Assembly (NCBI GenBank): GCA_937982115.1
Contig: CALJNE010000004.1
Coordinates: 1-64,000 of the forward strand
DNA from: an uncultured Bacteroidales bacterium
GTDB lineage: Bacteria > Bacteroidota > Bacteroidia > Bacteroidales > ML635J-15
Reading direction: 5' to 3'
Length of the DNA stretch: 64,000 bases
Shown: in pieces, positions 42,750 through 62,549 of the stretch
Numbering within the stretch: position 1 is the stretch's first letter
Layout of the letters: each line of letters starts with the position of its first letter
Program-made: the position numbers and the translations under genes
The notes under the pieces: model-generated
What the model was told of the DNA's origin: nothing
What the model saw: the letters and a program-made list of their open reading frames with translations, nothing else
The model's database searches: none

Positions 42750-43739
42750 TTAATTATAATTATAAACTAAATTTTCATTAAAATCAACTTTAAACCTTAT
42801 GTTATTTGATTTCCATTTACGTTTTATCGCAACATATTCATCCAAACTTAAAGAATTTATGTGAAGAAAATCCTGATATAAAATCTCCATCTTCAAATAT
42901 TTTATCCAAGCAAGTCTCACCTCCAACAGCTTATAATAATTCGGAACAGATTTTAAACTTTTAAGAAAAGAATAAAAATTAGCATATACCTGCAAGTACT
43001 TCGTGGCAACTCCTCGCATAAACCGATTTATAAATTCTTTAAATTCCTCAACTTTGTACCCGTGCATTTTCAAACTATTCTCCAACCTCCTGATTTTTAT
43101 AGTGCTATTTTTCTCTTTTATCAATTGTTTAACATCGTCAATTAAAATTTTTTCATCATCCTTAAAAAATAATAAAGATTTATTCGCAACTCTGCCAGAA
43201 AAACGTTCGTGAAAATCTTTACTTATACTATCTCCAACGTTAATAAACTTAAACTCAGTTAATCGGCTATCAGTAATAGAACACAAATTAACTTTCTGTA
43301 ATTTTTTCTTGATGCTCCGAGTAGCTTGCTTACGTCCTTTTTCACTAAAATTAAAACTTACTTTATTGGCAATCGTTACCGACTCGTAATCCTGCTTAAC
43401 TAATTGCAAAGCTATAAAAATCTTGTGTCGCCAGTCAAAAGCGGTTAAAATACTAATTCCAAATTTATTAGAAATATTTTTTATCGTCAAAACTTCCCCA
43501 CTATTAAACATATCAAATAATTGCAAAAATTTCTCTTTCTTATTTATGTAATGAATGCTGCTCCCACTCGTCGGAATGAAAGTACGACGACATATTTTGC
43601 ATCTATATCTCGAGACATTTACGTATTTTCCAAACTTAACAAAATGTTTACTTCCACAATGAGGACATTCCTTGATTGGCAGATTCACAATTTCTTGCGG
43701 GAATGGATTGCGTTTTGGTTTTTTAGGTTTTTGGTTCAT
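42750..43739 (-). CDS. IS1595/ISXO2-like zinc-ribbon protein, apparently lacking catalytic residues (paralog of 413-1450)
   Basis: CPHCGSKHFVKFGKYVNVSRYRCKICRRTFIPTSGSSIHYINKK; ISILTAFDWRHKI; RGVATKYLQVYANFY; co-linear with the 413-1450 product. Confidence 0.7.
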   Translation of the reverse strand: MNQKPKKPKRNPFPQEIVNLPIKECPHCGSKHFVKFGKYVNVSRYRCKICRRTFIPTSGSSIHYINKKEKFLQLFDMFNSGEVLTIKNISNKFGISILTAFDWRHKIFIALQLVKQDYESVTIANKVSFNFSEKGRKQATRSIKKKLQKVNLCSITDSRLTEFKFINVGDSISKDFHERFSGRVANKSLLFFKDDEKILIDDVKQLIKEKNSTIKIRRLENSLKMHGYKVEEFKEFINRFMRGVATKYLQVYANFYSFLKSLKSVPNYYKLLEVRLAWIKYLKMEILYQDFLHINSLSLDEYVAIKRKWKSNNIRFKVDFNENLVYNYN

Positions 43740-44230
43740 TTTATAACGTTTTTCAATTAAAAAATCAAAATTTCAACACATATTTATAATAAAATATAAT
43801 TTTAAAAAAACATCTTTCCGATTCATAAATATTTCATCAAAATTAAATAAAAAATACACTTCCAAAATTACAAGATTCCTTGATTGGCAGGTTCACAATT
43901 TCTTGCGGGAATGGATTGCGTTTTACTTTTTTCTTTGTCTGGTTCATTTTTTAAAGGTTTTACTATTAACAAATTTTTGCAAATGTAATAAAAGAATCGA
44001 AATTTCAACACATTTTTGTAATAAATTATAATATTTAAAAAAAACACCTCTCCGATTCATAAATACATCATCAAATTTTAATAAAATAAAAACTACTCTC
44101 CCATTATTATAGCATTCCTTAATTGGCAAGTCCACAATTTCTTGCTGGAAAGTATTTCGTTCTACTTTTTTAGGTTTCTGATTCATCTTTTGAATGATTT
44201 TAGATTAAAACAAAAAACAACACATATTTA
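43671..44230. repeat. Tandem decayed repeats of the promoter plus first ~24 codons of the 42750-43739 gene (three units including the intact gene)
   Basis: CTTGATTGGCAG.TTCACAATTTCTTGCGGGAATGGATTGCGTTTT at 43671 recurs at 43879 and, more diverged, at 44118; the non-coding TTTCAACACAT...TTTAAAAAAAACA.CT.TCCGATTCATAAATA block is also repeated. Confidence 0.85.
43944..44186 (-). pseudogene. Truncated N-terminal copy of the IS1595-like gene
   Basis: MNQKPKKVERNTFQQEIVDLPIKEC matches the intact MNQKPKKPKRNPFPQEIVNLPIKEC, then diverges at the first zinc-ribbon Cys. Confidence 0.75.
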
Positions 44231-44772
44231 TAATTTATTATTATTTTTTCATTGATTCCTTTATTTTTTAAAATATTTTCAAAATTTAACAAAAATTGTA
44301 ATTATTTAGCTGCCCTACAAAGTTAAAAAATTTTTATTCTAATCAGGCTTTTAGTTATTCAAAAATGTTTCTATTATTTTTCCTTTCAAAAGAAACAACC
44401 CTTTCAATCCTGCCATGAACTTTTGCTCCTTGAGAAGAACGGAAACAGTTTGATATTTTGATTTTTTAACCCGAATTAAGCACAGAAATGAAAAGAACTA
44501 TAGCTTAGTATTTTAGGAATAGAATCAGTCAGGATTAAATCTCAACACAATGTATATCTTGTAGGACTTTAGGCAAATTTTGCATTTTTTAATACAGAAT
44601 TTGGGTCTAAATTTATAAAAAAGAAGACAAAAAAGATTCCTTAAAACAAATATAGAATCCATCATATATTTTAATTAAACAACCAACCGACTAACTGATA
44701 AACTAAATAACTAAAAAAAACTTCCATTACTATTGAAAAATATCTTACATTTATACTGAAAAAAATAAAAAT

Positions 44773-56334: not shown

Positions 56335-56580
56335 ATGGAAATTAAAATTTTAGGTCCCGGATGTCCCAAGTGTAAACAACTTCACCGATTAGTAACATCA
56401 GTTGTCGAAGAAAATAACATTAATGCAACAGTATCAAAAGTGGAAGATATAGTAGAAATAATGAATTATGGGGTTATGGTTACTCCCACTTTAATTATTA
56501 ATGACAAAATTGTAATGAAAGGAATAGTACCTTCAAAAGAAGAATTAAAAAGAAAATTAGAAGAATTTTTAAATGGATAA
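56335..56580 (+). CDS. Thioredoxin-like protein, TM0996/MTH895 type
   Basis: MEIKILGPGCPKCKQLHRLV; VMVTPTLIINDKIVMKG. Confidence 0.88.
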   Translation: MEIKILGPGCPKCKQLHRLVTSVVEENNINATVSKVEDIVEIMNYGVMVTPTLIINDKIVMKGIVPSKEELKRKLEEFLNG

Positions 56581-56875
56581 AGTAGAAAAATATTCCGAAG
56601 ATATTATGCTATTAGCAAAATATGCTAAAGTATTAAGTCATCCTGCAAGAATTTTTATTATAAAAGAATTATTAAAGATCAATTCGTGCTGTTATAGTTC
56701 CAACATAGTTGAAAAAATTCCAATTCAACGTTCAACATTATCTCAACATTTAAAAGAGCTAAAATATGTTGGATTAATTAAAGGCGAGGTAGAACCACCC
56801 TTTATTAAGTACTGTTTAGATAAAGAGAATTGGGAAAAATGTAAAAATATTATAAATCAATTTATTAACGAATAA
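56573..56875 (+). CDS. ArsR-family metalloregulator
   Basis: AKVLSHPARIFIIKELLKINSCCYSSNIVEKIPIQRSTLSQHLKELKYVGLIKGEVE wHTH with adjacent Cys pair. Confidence 0.9.
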   Translation: MDKVEKYSEDIMLLAKYAKVLSHPARIFIIKELLKINSCCYSSNIVEKIPIQRSTLSQHLKELKYVGLIKGEVEPPFIKYCLDKENWEKCKNIINQFINE

Positions 56876-56885
56876 TTCAAAAACT

Positions 56886-57302
56886 ATGAAAAAATTATTA
56901 TTTACTAATTTAATTTTATTAGTGTCAGTTATAATGTATTCTCAGAATGCAGAGTTTTATTATTTTAAAGCCAATCTTTCATGTTGCCAAGCTAGAGCTT
57001 GTAATGCTTTGGAAGGAGAATTAAAATCTCTAATTGAGACTAGCTTCCCCAAAGGAGATGTGAAATTTAAAACAATTATGATCGCCGACGAAAATAATAA
57101 AGATATTATAAATAAATATCAAGCAAAATCTCAAACCTGCATTTTAATAGTAAAAAAACGCAATTCTGAATTTTGGTATGATATGACTCCTTTTGTGAAA
57201 AAATATCAATATGCAAAAGAAGATGAAAAAAAACTTCGTGGACAAGAACTAGTTTTAGAAATTCAAAAAAATATAAAATTAAAGAAGAAACATAATATTT
57301 AA
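56886..57302 (+). CDS. Secreted small thiol protein (thioredoxin-like fold suspected)
   Basis: Signal peptide; AEFYYFKANLSCCQARACNALEGEL, a variant of YFHxxxRCxTC in two later operon genes. Confidence 0.55.
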   Translation: MKKLLFTNLILLVSVIMYSQNAEFYYFKANLSCCQARACNALEGELKSLIETSFPKGDVKFKTIMIADENNKDIINKYQAKSQTCILIVKKRNSEFWYDMTPFVKKYQYAKEDEKKLRGQELVLEIQKNIKLKKKHNI

Positions 57303-57311
57303 TACATTTTT

Positions 57312-58028
57312 ATGATTGAATACTTACAAAATATTGCCTATAATTCTGATTTTCCAATACCTGCTGCATTTTTTCTCGGTTTATTAACAGCAATAAGTCC
57401 ATGCCCATTAGCAACAAATATTTCTGCTATTGGTTTTATTAGCAAAGATCTTGAAAATAAAAATAAAGTTTTTATTAACGGCATATTTTACACAATTGGA
57501 CGTTTGGTAACATATACTTTATTGGGAATTATATTAATATCTATTTTAAAACAAGGTGCCAGCATATATAAAATTCAGAGATTTATAAATAGTAATGGGG
57601 AATATTTTATTGGACCTATGCTCTTAATTTTTGGTATTTTTATGCTCGACCTAATAAAAATAAAATTACCATTTTCATCTGGAAAAATATATAATTTAAG
57701 TCAAAAATTTACAAAAGCCGGAAAATTAAATTCTTTTATTTTAGGGATTCTGTTTGCATTAGCATTTTGTCCATATAGTGGTGTTTTATATTTTGGTGCA
57801 TTGATACCATTATCCTTAAGTGCTTCATCTGGGTACTTTTTACCATCAATATATGGAATTGCAACAGGAATACCAGTAATTATTTTTGCTTGGATTTTAG
57901 CTTATAGTGTAACTAGTATCGGTAAAGCCTATAACAACATTAAAACTTTTGAGCTTTGGTTTAGAAAAATTGTAGCGTTAGTATTTATTTTTTTTGGATT
58001 ATATTACTTTAAAATTTTTTTTATATAA
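57312..58028 (+). CDS. CcdA/DsbD-type transmembrane electron-transfer protein
   Basis: AISPCPLATNISAIGFI and LALAFCPYSGVLYFGALIPLS; multiple TM helices. Confidence 0.8.
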   Translation: MIEYLQNIAYNSDFPIPAAFFLGLLTAISPCPLATNISAIGFISKDLENKNKVFINGIFYTIGRLVTYTLLGIILISILKQGASIYKIQRFINSNGEYFIGPMLLIFGIFMLDLIKIKLPFSSGKIYNLSQKFTKAGKLNSFILGILFALAFCPYSGVLYFGALIPLSLSASSGYFLPSIYGIATGIPVIIFAWILAYSVTSIGKAYNNIKTFELWFRKIVALVFIFFGLYYFKIFFI

Positions 58029-58037
58029 TAACTTAAG

Positions 58038-59381
58038 ATGGAAACAAAAAAAGAATTAAAAATTTTAGTGTGGATAATAGTTTTGTTTTTAACAGCATTC
58101 TTCTTACCAATTGAAAGTGCTAGATTTAATGAAGCCATTTATGCTACGTTTGATTTAATTAAATGGTATGCCCGCGAACATGTTATTCTATGTTTATTAC
58201 CAGCTTTTTTTATTGCAGGAGTTATTTCAATTTTTATAAGTCAAGCCTCTGTAATAAAGTATTTTGGGGCAAATGCTAAAAAATGGATTTCTTATACAGT
58301 TGCAGCCGTTTCTGGAACTATTTTAGCCGTTTGTTCATGCACAATTTTACCTTTATTTTCCAGTATTCATAAAAGAGGTGCTGGATTAGGTCCTGCAATT
58401 GCATTTCTTTATTCTGGTCCTGCTATAAATATTTTAGCAATAATTTTAACCGCGCGCATATTAGGTTTTGAAATGGGCATTGCCAGAGTTGTGGGAGCAG
58501 TATCATTTAGTGTTATCATTGGATTAATAATGGCTTTAATTTATCGAAAAGAAGAGAATATAAAAAAAGAAGAGCAAATGAATCTTGTTAGTCCACCTGA
58601 AAAACGCCCATTATGGCAAACAGCATTACATTTTTTCACTCTGGTATTAATTCTAGTATTTGCAAATTGGGGAGCACCAAATAATGGTCAAACATCAGGA
58701 GTATGGTATAATATATACTCAAATAAATGGCTCATAACATCAATATTAAGTATTGTTCTAATGTTTTCATTAATTTATGTGCTCAAAATTAAATGGCAAT
58801 GGGTAATTGTTGCTGGTATTATTACAGCCACATCTGGGATAATATCTTTTAATTTAATCGAAAACACTAAAATTGCTCCACTAGTCCCAATGATTATTGG
58901 AATCATTTCTTTAAGTGTTATAACAATTTTTGATAAAAATGATGAAGATAATAAATCATGGACAATAACCAGTTGGGATTTTATGAAACAAATAATGCCT
59001 TTACTTGCTTTTGGGGTTATTATTGCGGGATTCCTTCTAGGTTCTACTCATGATAATGTAAAAATTTCAGGAATAATTCCTGATGAATGGATTCAATCTT
59101 TAGTTGGAGGTAATAGCATTTTTTCTAATTTTTTTGCTTCGATTGTAGGAGCTTTCATGTATTTCGCCACATTAACAGAGGTGCCAATTTTGCAAGGATT
59201 AATTGCTTCCGGAATGGGAAAAGGACCAGCTTTGGCATTATTGTTAGCCGGACCATCTTTGTCATTACCAAATATGCTAGTTATTCGTGGGGTAATTGGA
59301 ACGCAAAAAACTTTAGTTTATGTAAGTTTGGTTGTTATTATGGCTACTGTCGCAGGGTTAATTTATGGTTCTATATTTTAA
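58038..59381 (+). CDS. ArsP/YraQ-like (DUF318) permease
   Basis: GTILAVCSCTILPLFSSIHKRGAGLGPAIAFLYSGPAINILAIILTARILG. Confidence 0.87.
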   Translation: METKKELKILVWIIVLFLTAFFLPIESARFNEAIYATFDLIKWYAREHVILCLLPAFFIAGVISIFISQASVIKYFGANAKKWISYTVAAVSGTILAVCSCTILPLFSSIHKRGAGLGPAIAFLYSGPAINILAIILTARILGFEMGIARVVGAVSFSVIIGLIMALIYRKEENIKKEEQMNLVSPPEKRPLWQTALHFFTLVLILVFANWGAPNNGQTSGVWYNIYSNKWLITSILSIVLMFSLIYVLKIKWQWVIVAGIITATSGIISFNLIENTKIAPLVPMIIGIISLSVITIFDKNDEDNKSWTITSWDFMKQIMPLLAFGVIIAGFLLGSTHDNVKISGIIPDEWIQSLVGGNSIFSNFFASIVGAFMYFATLTEVPILQGLIASGMGKGPALALLLAGPSLSLPNMLVIRGVIGTQKTLVYVSLVVIMATVAGLIYGSIF

Positions 59382-59397
59382 ATTATAAATTATAATT

Positions 59398-59823
59398 ATG
59401 TTATTAAATAAAGCAAAATTATTATCATTTTTTTCTGGAAATGTTTATAGTATATCTCCCAAAGATGCATATAATCTTTGTATCGAAGGAATGATACTCG
59501 TTGATATTAGAGATAAATCCTTAGTGGAATTTAAAAAATTTGATGTTCCACAAATATTTTATTTACCTATAGAATCCATAGATTTAAATTATAATAGTCT
59601 TAACAATAAGGATATATATATTATTGCTGATTCTTCCGGTCTTTATAGTAAAGACATTACATTATTTTTAAATAAAAAAGGGTTTGATAATGTGTTTAAT
59701 CTTTCAGGAGGAATTTTAGACTGGGAAAGAAGTGGTTTACCTGTAATTACAAATAATAAAGTAATGTTGTCAGGTTCATGTACGTGTCAGTTGAAATTTA
59801 GAAATTATAATGATAAGTCTTAA
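59398..59823 (+). CDS. Rhodanese-like domain protein with Asp at the usual active-site Cys
   Basis: GMILVDIRDKSLVEFKKF; IYIIADSSGLYSKDITLFLNKKGFDNVFNLSGGILDWERSGLPV; C-terminal CTC. Confidence 0.75.
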   Translation: MLLNKAKLLSFFSGNVYSISPKDAYNLCIEGMILVDIRDKSLVEFKKFDVPQIFYLPIESIDLNYNSLNNKDIYIIADSSGLYSKDITLFLNKKGFDNVFNLSGGILDWERSGLPVITNNKVMLSGSCTCQLKFRNYNDKS

Positions 59824-59833
59824 AAAATGAAAA

Positions 59834-60202
59834 ATGGGAAGTAAAGAAACCTGTTTATGCGGAATAAGCGAATATATAGTGTTGTCATGTTCGGGAGCAT
59901 GTGACCTAGGACAAATTACCGACATGGTAGCACGCAGATTAAGAGATAATGGGGTTAGAAAAATGAATTGTCTTGCTGCTGTTGGTGCAGGATTAGATGA
60001 TTACATAGAAAATTTTAGAAAATCCAATTTATTAATGTTAGATGGGTGTAATTCATGTTGTGGTAAAAATACTCTCCTTAAAAATAATATAAATAACTTT
60101 ATACATTTCAAACTTACAGACTTGAGACTTGAAAAATATAAAACTCCTATAAATGATGATATTATAAAAAAGGTTTATGATGAAGTAGAAATAATATATT
60201 AA
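59834..60202 (+). CDS. DGC-domain putative zinc-binding protein
   Basis: LSCSGACDLGQITDMVARRL and LMLDGCNSCCGKNTL. Confidence 0.82.
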   Translation: MGSKETCLCGISEYIVLSCSGACDLGQITDMVARRLRDNGVRKMNCLAAVGAGLDDYIENFRKSNLLMLDGCNSCCGKNTLLKNNINNFIHFKLTDLRLEKYKTPINDDIIKKVYDEVEIIY

Positions 60203-60214
60203 AATTAAAATCAT

Positions 60215-60655
60215 ATGAAAAGAAAAAAACAGTACTTTAAAAAACTTGTATTTTTAGGATTTATATTATTAAATATAGTATTTTCATGTAAAAATACTAA
60301 TAAAAAAGCCAATGAAAATGTCGAAGAATTTGGTTTCACTAAAAAAGCGACCATTGCTTATTTTCATGGCGATAGAAGATGTCCTACTTGTATAACTGTA
60401 GGAGATTTAGCAAAAAACACTTACGAAAGTTTTTTTAAAGAAAATCAAGATGTTGAATTTTATGAAATAAATATTGATAAAGATAATAATATAAAAATAG
60501 CTGAAAAATATGAAGTTGCCGGTTCAGCTTTGATAATAATTGGAAAAAATAACTTTCAAGATATCACTGGTTTTGCATTTAAAAATGCAACCACAAATCC
60601 CGAGTTAATTAAAAATAAAATTATTGAATTAGTAAATCAATATCTTGAAGATTAA
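60215..60655 (+). CDS. Small lipoprotein with YFHGDRRCPTC motif (thioredoxin-like suspected)
   Basis: Lipobox LNIVFSCKN; ATIAYFHGDRRCPTCITVGDLAK. Confidence 0.55.
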   Translation: MKRKKQYFKKLVFLGFILLNIVFSCKNTNKKANENVEEFGFTKKATIAYFHGDRRCPTCITVGDLAKNTYESFFKENQDVEFYEINIDKDNNIKIAEKYEVAGSALIIIGKNNFQDITGFAFKNATTNPELIKNKIIELVNQYLED

Positions 60656-60678
60656 TTTTTTTAAAAATTATATCAATT

Positions 60679-61086
60679 ATGAAAAAGATATTTTTAACAA
60701 TCATAGTATTATTCACATTTTTCTTGTATGGAATTGCACAAAAACAAAATCCCAAAGTAATAGTTTATTATTTTCATGCAACACATCGTTGCAATACCTG
60801 TATTGAAATTGAAAACAAAACTAAATTAGTTTTGTTTCAAGATTTCAAAGATGAATTAATTAATGGCATAATACAATTTCAATCATTTGATTACGAAGAT
60901 CCAACCAATCAAAAAATTGTAAAAAAATATTTTGCTTATGGGTCAACATTACTTCTGGTTTATCCAAGTGATGAGACAAAAAATGTTGAACTTACTGAAG
61001 TAGCATTTCAATATGTTGTAAATAAACCAGAAAAATTTAAAGAAATATTATCACAAGAAATCGAAAAGTTAATTCAAAGTAATTAA
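60679..61086 (+). CDS. Secreted small protein with YFHATHRCNTC motif, paralog of 60215-60655
   Basis: Signal peptide; VIVYYFHATHRCNTCIEIENKTKLVL. Confidence 0.55.
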   Translation: MKKIFLTIIVLFTFFLYGIAQKQNPKVIVYYFHATHRCNTCIEIENKTKLVLFQDFKDELINGIIQFQSFDYEDPTNQKIVKKYFAYGSTLLLVYPSDETKNVELTEVAFQYVVNKPEKFKEILSQEIEKLIQSN

Positions 61087-61096
61087 AACAAATTTT

Positions 61097-61522
61097 ATGA
61101 AAATTTTAATACTATGTACTGGTAATTCTTGCCGATCTCAAATGGCACATGGATTTTTACAATCTTTTGATCCTGAAATAACTGTATGCTCGGCAGGGAC
61201 AGAGGCAACAGGGAAATTAAATTCTAAAGCAGTAGAAGTAATGAAAGAAATTGGGATTGATATATCGCACCACACTTCAGACCCGGTTGAAAAATATCTT
61301 GATGATGAGTGGGATTATGTTATTACAGTTTGTGGAGGAGCAAATGAAAATTGTCCTACTTTTTTGGGTAAAGTAAAAAACAGGCTACATATTGGATTTG
61401 ATGATCCAACATATTCAGTCGGTAGTGAAGATTTCATTATGTCTGAATATAGAAGAGTAAGAGACGAAATAAAGGATGCTTTTTGGAAATTTTATTTAAA
61501 TAATATTAAAAATAAAAAATAA
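61097..61522 (+). CDS. arsC: Arsenate reductase, LMW-phosphatase fold (thioredoxin-coupled type)
   Basis: MKILILCTGNSCRSQMAHGFLQSF; VITVCGGANENCPTFLGKVKNRLHIGFDDPTYSVG. Confidence 0.93.
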   Translation: MKILILCTGNSCRSQMAHGFLQSFDPEITVCSAGTEATGKLNSKAVEVMKEIGIDISHHTSDPVEKYLDDEWDYVITVCGGANENCPTFLGKVKNRLHIGFDDPTYSVGSEDFIMSEYRRVRDEIKDAFWKFYLNNIKNKK

Positions 61523-61523
61523 T

Positions 61524-62549
61524 ATGGGAACAAAAAAAATAGCATTTTTTGAAAAATACCTTACTGTATGGGTTGCTCTTTGTATTGCTGCAGGAATTGT
61601 AATAGGTTATTTTGCTGGTGACAAAATAAAGTTTTTAACTGAAATGGAAATATTTAATGTAAACATTCCTGTTGCTATACTGATTTGGTTAATGATTTAC
61701 CCAATGATGTTGCAAATAGATTTCACCAGTTTAAAAAAAGTAGGAAAAGAACCTAAAGGGCTCATTTTAACAGTTGTTGTTAACTGGTTAATTAAACCCT
61801 TTACTATGGCATTTTTTGCCTGGATATTTTTTACAAAAATATATGCTGCCTTTATAGATCCATCACAAGCTGGAGAATACATAGCAGGAGCTATCCTATT
61901 GGGTGCAGCTCCGTGTACGGCTATGGTTTTTGTTTGGTCTTATCTTTCTGATGGAAATCCTAATTATACTCTTGTACAGGTATCGGTTAATGATTTAATT
62001 ATTTTAATTGCTTTTGTTCCTATTGTAGGACTTTTATTAGGAATAACAGATATAAGAATACCATACGAAACTCTTGCTACAAGTGTTTTAGTTTTTGTTG
62101 TCATTCCTCTTTTAGCTGGATATATTACAAACAGAACAGTAATTAAACAAAAAGGTGAAGAATGGTTGAAAAACAAATTATTACCTAAAATAAGACCTTT
62201 TTCAATCGGAGCATTACTTGTAACTTTAATTTTATTATTTGCTTTTCAAGGAGAAATAATTACTCAAAAACCATTCATCATATTACTTGTTGCGATACCT
62301 CTAATATTACAAACCTATTTTATTTTCTTAATAACATGGCTTATTGGAAAATACATCAAACTCCCCTACTCCATTTGTGCCCCTGCTGCAATGATAGGTG
62401 CAAGTAACTTTTTTGAACTTGCAGTAGCTGTTGCAATAGTGTTATTCGGATATCAATCCCCTGCCGCAATGGTTACTGTTGTTGGAGTACTGGTTGAAGT
62501 TCCTGTAATGTTATCGTTAGTAGCTTTTGCTAATAAAAATAAATATTAA
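61524..62549 (+). CDS. ACR3 family arsenite efflux transporter
   Basis: YPMMLQIDFTSLKKVGKEPKGLILTVVVNWLIKPFTMAFFAWIFF; GAAPCTAMVFVWSYL; SICAPAAMIGASNFFELAVAVAI. Confidence 0.95.
   Translation: MGTKKIAFFEKYLTVWVALCIAAGIVIGYFAGDKIKFLTEMEIFNVNIPVAILIWLMIYPMMLQIDFTSLKKVGKEPKGLILTVVVNWLIKPFTMAFFAWIFFTKIYAAFIDPSQAGEYIAGAILLGAAPCTAMVFVWSYLSDGNPNYTLVQVSVNDLIILIAFVPIVGLLLGITDIRIPYETLATSVLVFVVIPLLAGYITNRTVIKQKGEEWLKNKLLPKIRPFSIGALLVTLILLFAFQGEIITQKPFIILLVAIPLILQTYFIFLITWLIGKYIKLPYSICAPAAMIGASNFFELAVAVAIVLFGYQSPAAMVTVVGVLVEVPVMLSLVAFANKNKY

Follow-up and report, generated by a model that had tools for sequence, protein, structure and literature searches.

How do genes that encode a dead cutting enzyme spread, and what do they do? 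Transposons are expected to die once the active site of their transposase has been lost, and a transposase that becomes domesticated should end up as a single gene or a few. The triad-less transposase genes considered here have intact frames, are maintained by selection, number in the dozens, and are found again in separate lineages. One of them, P0001, lies at 42750..43739 on the minus strand of the window, the 64,000-nt stretch of Bacteroidales DNA that was analysed. The initial annotation took it for a possible domesticated transposase, retained to bind DNA.

P0001 descends from an IS1595 transposase. Its reading frame runs from ATG to stop, 329 amino acids with no premature stop, as had been claimed, and the ancestral parts are all kept. 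Reading from the N-terminus, with every feature on the minus strand, there is a zinc ribbon (aa 24-55; 43575..43670), in which C25, C28, C47, and C50 are invariant and which scores 44.3 bits against NF050000, the NCBIfam model of the IS1/IS1595 zinc domain (cut-off 28); a helix-turn-helix (HTH) of the WRHK kind, containing TAFDWRHK (aa 86-110; 43410..43484), with T99 and F101-K106 invariant and model helices at 86-93 and 97-110; an RNase H-like fold that lacks the triad (aa 119-240; 43020..43385), recognized by alignments, an AF2 model, and Foldseek; and the GVATKYL motif followed by a C-terminal extension (aa 241-329; 42753..43019) that carries W278, E285, Y288, and KRKWK. The zinc ribbon, HTH, and GVATKYL motif were already named in the initial annotation. 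The DNA-binding parts, zinc ribbon and HTH, are the best-conserved portions of the family. In the tail, W278 and R307-W309-K310 are invariant across the family alignment, E285 and Y288 nearly so. A second paralog in the window was said to share this extension, and it does: P0002 (413..1450, minus strand; 345 aa) is a divergent paralog, also without the triad, 27% identical to P0001 in the family alignment and 87% identical in nucleotides to copy L028 elsewhere in the genome. The extension is present as well in the triad-bearing relatives L034, L153, L154, and L155.

P0001 falls under the IS1595 transposase cut-off (NF033547, 31.6 bits vs 75; P0002 reaches 44.3 bits). Its Pfam and NCBIfam matches are confined to zinc ribbons and IS1/IS1595/IS256-type models, with no HUH/Y1 transposase model among them, and a sequence search of solved structures with P0001 returned no match.

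Judged by alignment, the catalytic D-D-N triad is lost in both P0001 and P0002. The three residues (D161, D237, N273) are invariant in 10 of 10 triad-bearing relatives collected from other Bacteroidales genomes; the nearest such relatives within the same GTDB family are L033 and L034. An HMM-HMM alignment of the window family with the ten (probability 100, E = 6e-74) places N125 of P0001 at D1 and either G227 or a gap at N3, and so does an alignment with the transposases of ISAma5 and ISCaje5, which were taken from annotated plasmids and carry ISfinder names. The D2 column falls on K193 or D194 according to the alignment, a one-residue ambiguity; the position of D194 is N in L004 and L047, of the window subfamily, and S, A, P, T, or Y in the wider family. 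Residue calls and E-values alike depend on the alignments. Neither alignment recovers D-D-N, and VTIANKVSFNFSEKGRK and KVEEFKEFINRFMRG, singled out beforehand as the remains of two catalytic blocks, prove to be the right places, one with N125 at D1 and the other with no N at N3. The triad is missing from every family member examined in G000, the window's own genome, and in G014, of the same genus. Across 20 family members the only invariant acidic residue is D102, in the HTH, with E285 in the tail nearly invariant; inside the RNase H domain the alignment of this clade (clade A) has none. The scaffold remains. The AF2 model of P0001 built from 32 rows (pTM 0.81), used instead of a weaker one from 20 rows (pTM 0.54), has RNase H-like topology, and its top PDB fold matches in Foldseek are the DDE recombinases Mos1 and retroviral integrases (E = 2e-4), with low whole-chain TM-scores of 0.2-0.3.

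P0001 does not stand alone as a domesticated gene but is a member of a large family, which has 53 places in G000 (2.69 Mb, 91 contigs, 90.65% complete) and 47 in G014 (MAG Bacteroidales bacterium Bact_19), where contig-end fragments count as places, not complete genes, and identical copies are collapsed, as they are in MAG assemblies. Many of the places in G000 are at contig ends, which is expected of repeats. The genes adjoining the copies differ from copy to copy. In the remaining 29 of the 31 genomes of the GTDB family there is no family gene above threshold, except in G020 and G027, which have one gene each with the triad present, and G005, which has two canonical IS1595 genes. A truncated member of about 120 codons, zinc ribbon and HTH alone, occurs in both multi-copy genomes (L019, G000:C6:11245-11604; L050, G014:C79:34392-34772); the two are 85% identical in nucleotides over 344 bp, and L050 has an internal stop.

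Purifying selection acts on the whole protein after the loss of its chemistry. The dN/dS comparison that had been suggested as a check gives values of 0.08-0.28 among orthologs and among paralogs, and constraint is seen in each third of the protein. The intact frame and the selection expected of a domesticated transposase are thus there; the single gene is not. Position gives a mixed picture. Divergent members of the family, about 30% identical to one another, have one-to-one partners in G000 and G014, and the DNA flanking the partners is homologous (L021/L063, L022/L071, L025/L072, L026/L078, L027/L068, L030/L074, L031/L069, and others). Within the window subfamily, the flanks of 16 copies were located in G014: at eight of the loci, that of P0001 among them (partner L045), G014 has a family gene as well, and at the other eight it has none. 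At two of the latter, L003 and L004, a single G014 contig bridges both sides, so the copies are absent there. The missing stretch, about 1.7-1.85 kb, exceeds the ORF and takes in 5' head units and 150-180 bp of 3' DNA. The difference is an insertion in G000 or a deletion in G014, which cannot be told apart in single cases. G008 and G025, however, share some of the flanks and carry no family gene.

Similarity among copies of the window subfamily stops at the last codons (NNY); the stop codon comes from the flank, as expected if the end of an element sits inside the ORF. A TIR test of the subfamily gave z = -1.7; a pair drawn by eye, TATAATTTATTTCAAAT / TATAGTTATTTATCAAAT, did no better than shuffles, and inspection for TSDs turned up a possible 5-bp TTTAA at L004 and no clear one at L003. 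The gene does not, then, occur only as recent multi-copy insertions with TIRs and TSDs: the P0001 locus is shared with G014, and the tests gave no definite TIR or TSD for its subfamily.

Then there is the DNA upstream. The region 43740..43830 (minus strand), with ATGTGTTG and TANNTTTG-like boxes, we take to be the promoter from its resemblance to the Bacteroidetes consensus; it would also be the left end, and it is repeated further upstream with 86% identity. Beyond it stand two decayed 5' heads, consisting of promoter and first codons: unit -1 at 43837..43961 (the region of the start codon plus the first codons; 81% identical to the P0001 5' end) and unit -2 at 44076..44200 (69% identical), both on the minus strand and spaced 208 and 239 bp. 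Similar arrays lie upstream of other family copies, and the number of heads differs between syntenic partners, L007 having one more than L042 and L011 more than L046. Syntenic window-subfamily pairs show dS of 0.79-1.45, above most orthologous divergent pairs (eight at 0.28-0.54, three at 0.75-1.03). The heads and the higher dS are consistent with recurrent replacement or conversion at the locus, with a 5' head left over from each event; tandem duplication may also be the source of the heads.

Other features of the neighbourhood can be mentioned briefly. A palindromic repeat X, AAATTCTGTATTAAAAAATGCAAAATTTGCC, lies at 44572..44602 (minus strand). Its core is matched exactly 3' of family copy L009, and weaker matches flank the genes on both sides at L003 and L004, the loci empty in G014. 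As a genome-wide REP it fails, having only four matches with three or fewer mismatches. The ORF adjoining P0001 (44773-45129, 118 aa) looks by eye like a truncated AAA-type ATPase (GLRRCGKSTLL), and a run of same-strand genes at 56573-62549 looks, again by eye, like an arsenic-resistance-type cluster, with an ArsR-like regulator, permeases, a phosphatase-like reductase, an ACR3-like transporter, and several small CxxC proteins. PADLOC found no defence system. Phage or plasmid cargo was set aside too: the matches listed were annotated transposases, mostly IS1595, at 27-29% identity, and two weak matches to viral contigs. The Rfam matches in the window were two tRNAs.

The window family is not alone. 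Across 393 genomes surveyed in the order, two further multi-copy families without the triad came to light, clade B in G101 and G361 (83 and 57 places) and clade C in G111 and G214 (19 and 39). All the full-length copies of clades B and C that were inspected lack D2, and all but one lack N3; the exception, L189/L255 of clade B, has N at the N3 column but neither D2 nor an aligned D1. The D2 and N3 positions vary within each clade, and D1 varies also in A and C. Each of the three clades is monophyletic with full support, and the window clade branches from among the triad-bearing relatives (support 100/98). By the AU test, a single origin of A+B+C is rejected (p 0.021), as is A+B (p 0.036), while B+C is not (p 0.29). 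With one common dead origin rejected, there were at least two losses of the triad accompanied by expansion.

TIRs are significant in clades B and C (z 7.9 and 9.0), and the paired ends of clade C elements co-vary from copy to copy (TGTTCTG, TGCTCTG, GGTTCTG, TGCTATG). TSDs in clade C amount to one 7-of-8 match, at L204, and none at most copies. The 13 full-length copies in G101 differ mostly at synonymous sites, with a median pN/pS of 0.05. Because copies of both clades exceed the standard IS1595 cut-off, automatic annotation hides the loss of the triad. Six clade B copies of G101 (L170, L172, L178, L180, L182, L188) share extra repeats outside the TIRs, GGTTCTATAACGTTTATTGTGGGTAATAA upstream and TTATAATTTGGGTAATCAAATTATAGATTG downstream, which look like nesting in a larger repeat. 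In G330 a triad-bearing relative (L156, L166) occurs as four nearly identical copies, one of them carrying an in-frame TAG, and looks like an ordinary active IS.

I propose, at a probability of roughly 0.45, that these are catalysis-free end-binding proteins, kept by selection, whose copies rely for movement on chemistry from another source. On this view the D-D-N site was lost first and the family radiated in this lineage afterwards; its proteins have kept under selection the parts for DNA recognition (zinc ribbon and HTH), the RNase H-like scaffold, and the C-terminal tail. Each protein would bind its own copies, and perhaps sister copies, at the promoter, or left end, making it a self-regulating end-binding factor. 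What lets the copies relocate or replace each other would be either host recombination or, at the bound ends, some unrelated recombinase. DNA binding, autoregulation, and the source of catalysis are the parts of this proposal that I infer; DNA binding is the likeliest role of P0001. Against the proposal stands the window's own subfamily, with no TIR shown (z -1.7). The partial redundancy of copies within a genome argues against a strict host need for each. An active relative could also be missing from G000, given its incompleteness and contigs broken by repeats.

Such a relative is central to an alternative view that is unlikely: an IS1595 relative with its triad, unsampled or recently lost, mobilizes the copies by acting on their ends, and the dead ORFs survive as its repressors or competitors. 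That clades B and C keep matched TIRs speaks for it, as does the presence of triad-bearing relatives in the same GTDB family (G020, G027). However, an IS1595-profile search of G000, G014, G101, G361, G111, and G214 found no triad-bearing helper among the full-length matches, those inspected all lacking D2, in assemblies that are fragmented. Moreover, the dead state predates a deep radiation, whose members are now about 30% identical, so the helper would need to have persisted unseen for long in each lineage. The conserved TIRs of clades B and C would also suit proteins that remain competent for transposition, using metal ligands different from D-D-N, and so would the retained RNase H fold and the loci occupied in G000 but empty in G014. 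Against it, the RNase H domain of clade A has no invariant acidic residue (D102 is in the HTH, E285 in the tail), and the positions of D2 and N3 are variable within every clade, that of D1 in A and C too. A reworked active site is on these grounds improbable.

It might be supposed that the proteins are domesticated regulators of host genes, nearby or elsewhere, whose number grew by ordinary duplication. Divergent members do sit at orthologous positions under purifying selection, and there is no flood of pseudogenes. But the neighbouring genes change from copy to copy, half of the window subfamily is lineage-specific, and near-redundant copies persist, all of which leaves this reading rather unlikely. 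Plain IS decay was rejected on the intact frames and low dN/dS. For an ordinary IS caught shortly after its inactivation, one may point to the truncated L019 and L050 and to the decayed 5' heads upstream of full copies, but the frames are intact, dN/dS is far below 1 over a long divergence, and triad-less multi-copy families recur in separate lineages; I consider it very improbable.

The observations pose a choice: either a protein that does no more than recognize DNA can keep a mobile family going, or host DNA-binding proteins, a large family of them, have gone unnoticed under the annotation of IS1595 transposase. A bolder claim, possible although doubtful, is that at least twice in Bacteroidales IS1595 descendants that had lost all of the D-D-N triad went on spreading over a long period as single-protein elements, through an unconventional active site or through obligate dependence on another enzyme cutting at the bound ends. 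If it is true, there exists a type of transposon whose own "transposase" is the recognition subunit only.

No paper on triad-less IS1595 families in Bacteroidetes was found in the open-access literature searched. Several related or analogous systems offer comparisons. IS1595 members usually have 8-bp TSDs, according to an excerpt of PMC8101967. The insertion sequences ISAma5 and ISCaje5 share with the window family the N-terminal zinc ribbon, WRHK HTH, RNase H-like fold, and GVATKYL motif, ISAma5 being 28.5% identical to P0001 over 82% of its length; they keep D-D-N, whereas the window family lacks it and has a longer C-terminal tail. Closer are the triad-bearing L153, L154, L155, L033, and L034, with the same domain order and tail as the window clade. 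They differ in having D-D-N intact and one gene per genome at the search sensitivity used. Among regulators derived from transposons, an RNA-guided one descends from the transposon protein TnpB. It too has lost cutting and serves as a regulator, but it belongs to an unrelated protein family, is guided by RNA, and is not found in dozens of dispersed copies.

Merlin-related ORFs of the ciliate Stentor belong to the same superfamily as the window proteins. As excerpted from PMC8101967, their frames are preserved, DDE is not conserved, and domestication is suggested. Intact ORFs, a degraded triad, and several divergent copies are thus common to both. The Stentor ORFs are eukaryotic, however, and without the zinc ribbon, and that excerpt describes no set of dozens with matched terminal repeats. 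Finally, RAYT (TnpA-REP) is a domesticated transposase tied to dispersed palindromes (PMC8266576), and it resembles the present case as a transposase descendant kept by the host beside short dispersed repeats. Its HUH tyrosine chemistry and fold are different, and the window family has lost its chemistry and exists in many copies, so RAYT is a work-alike only.
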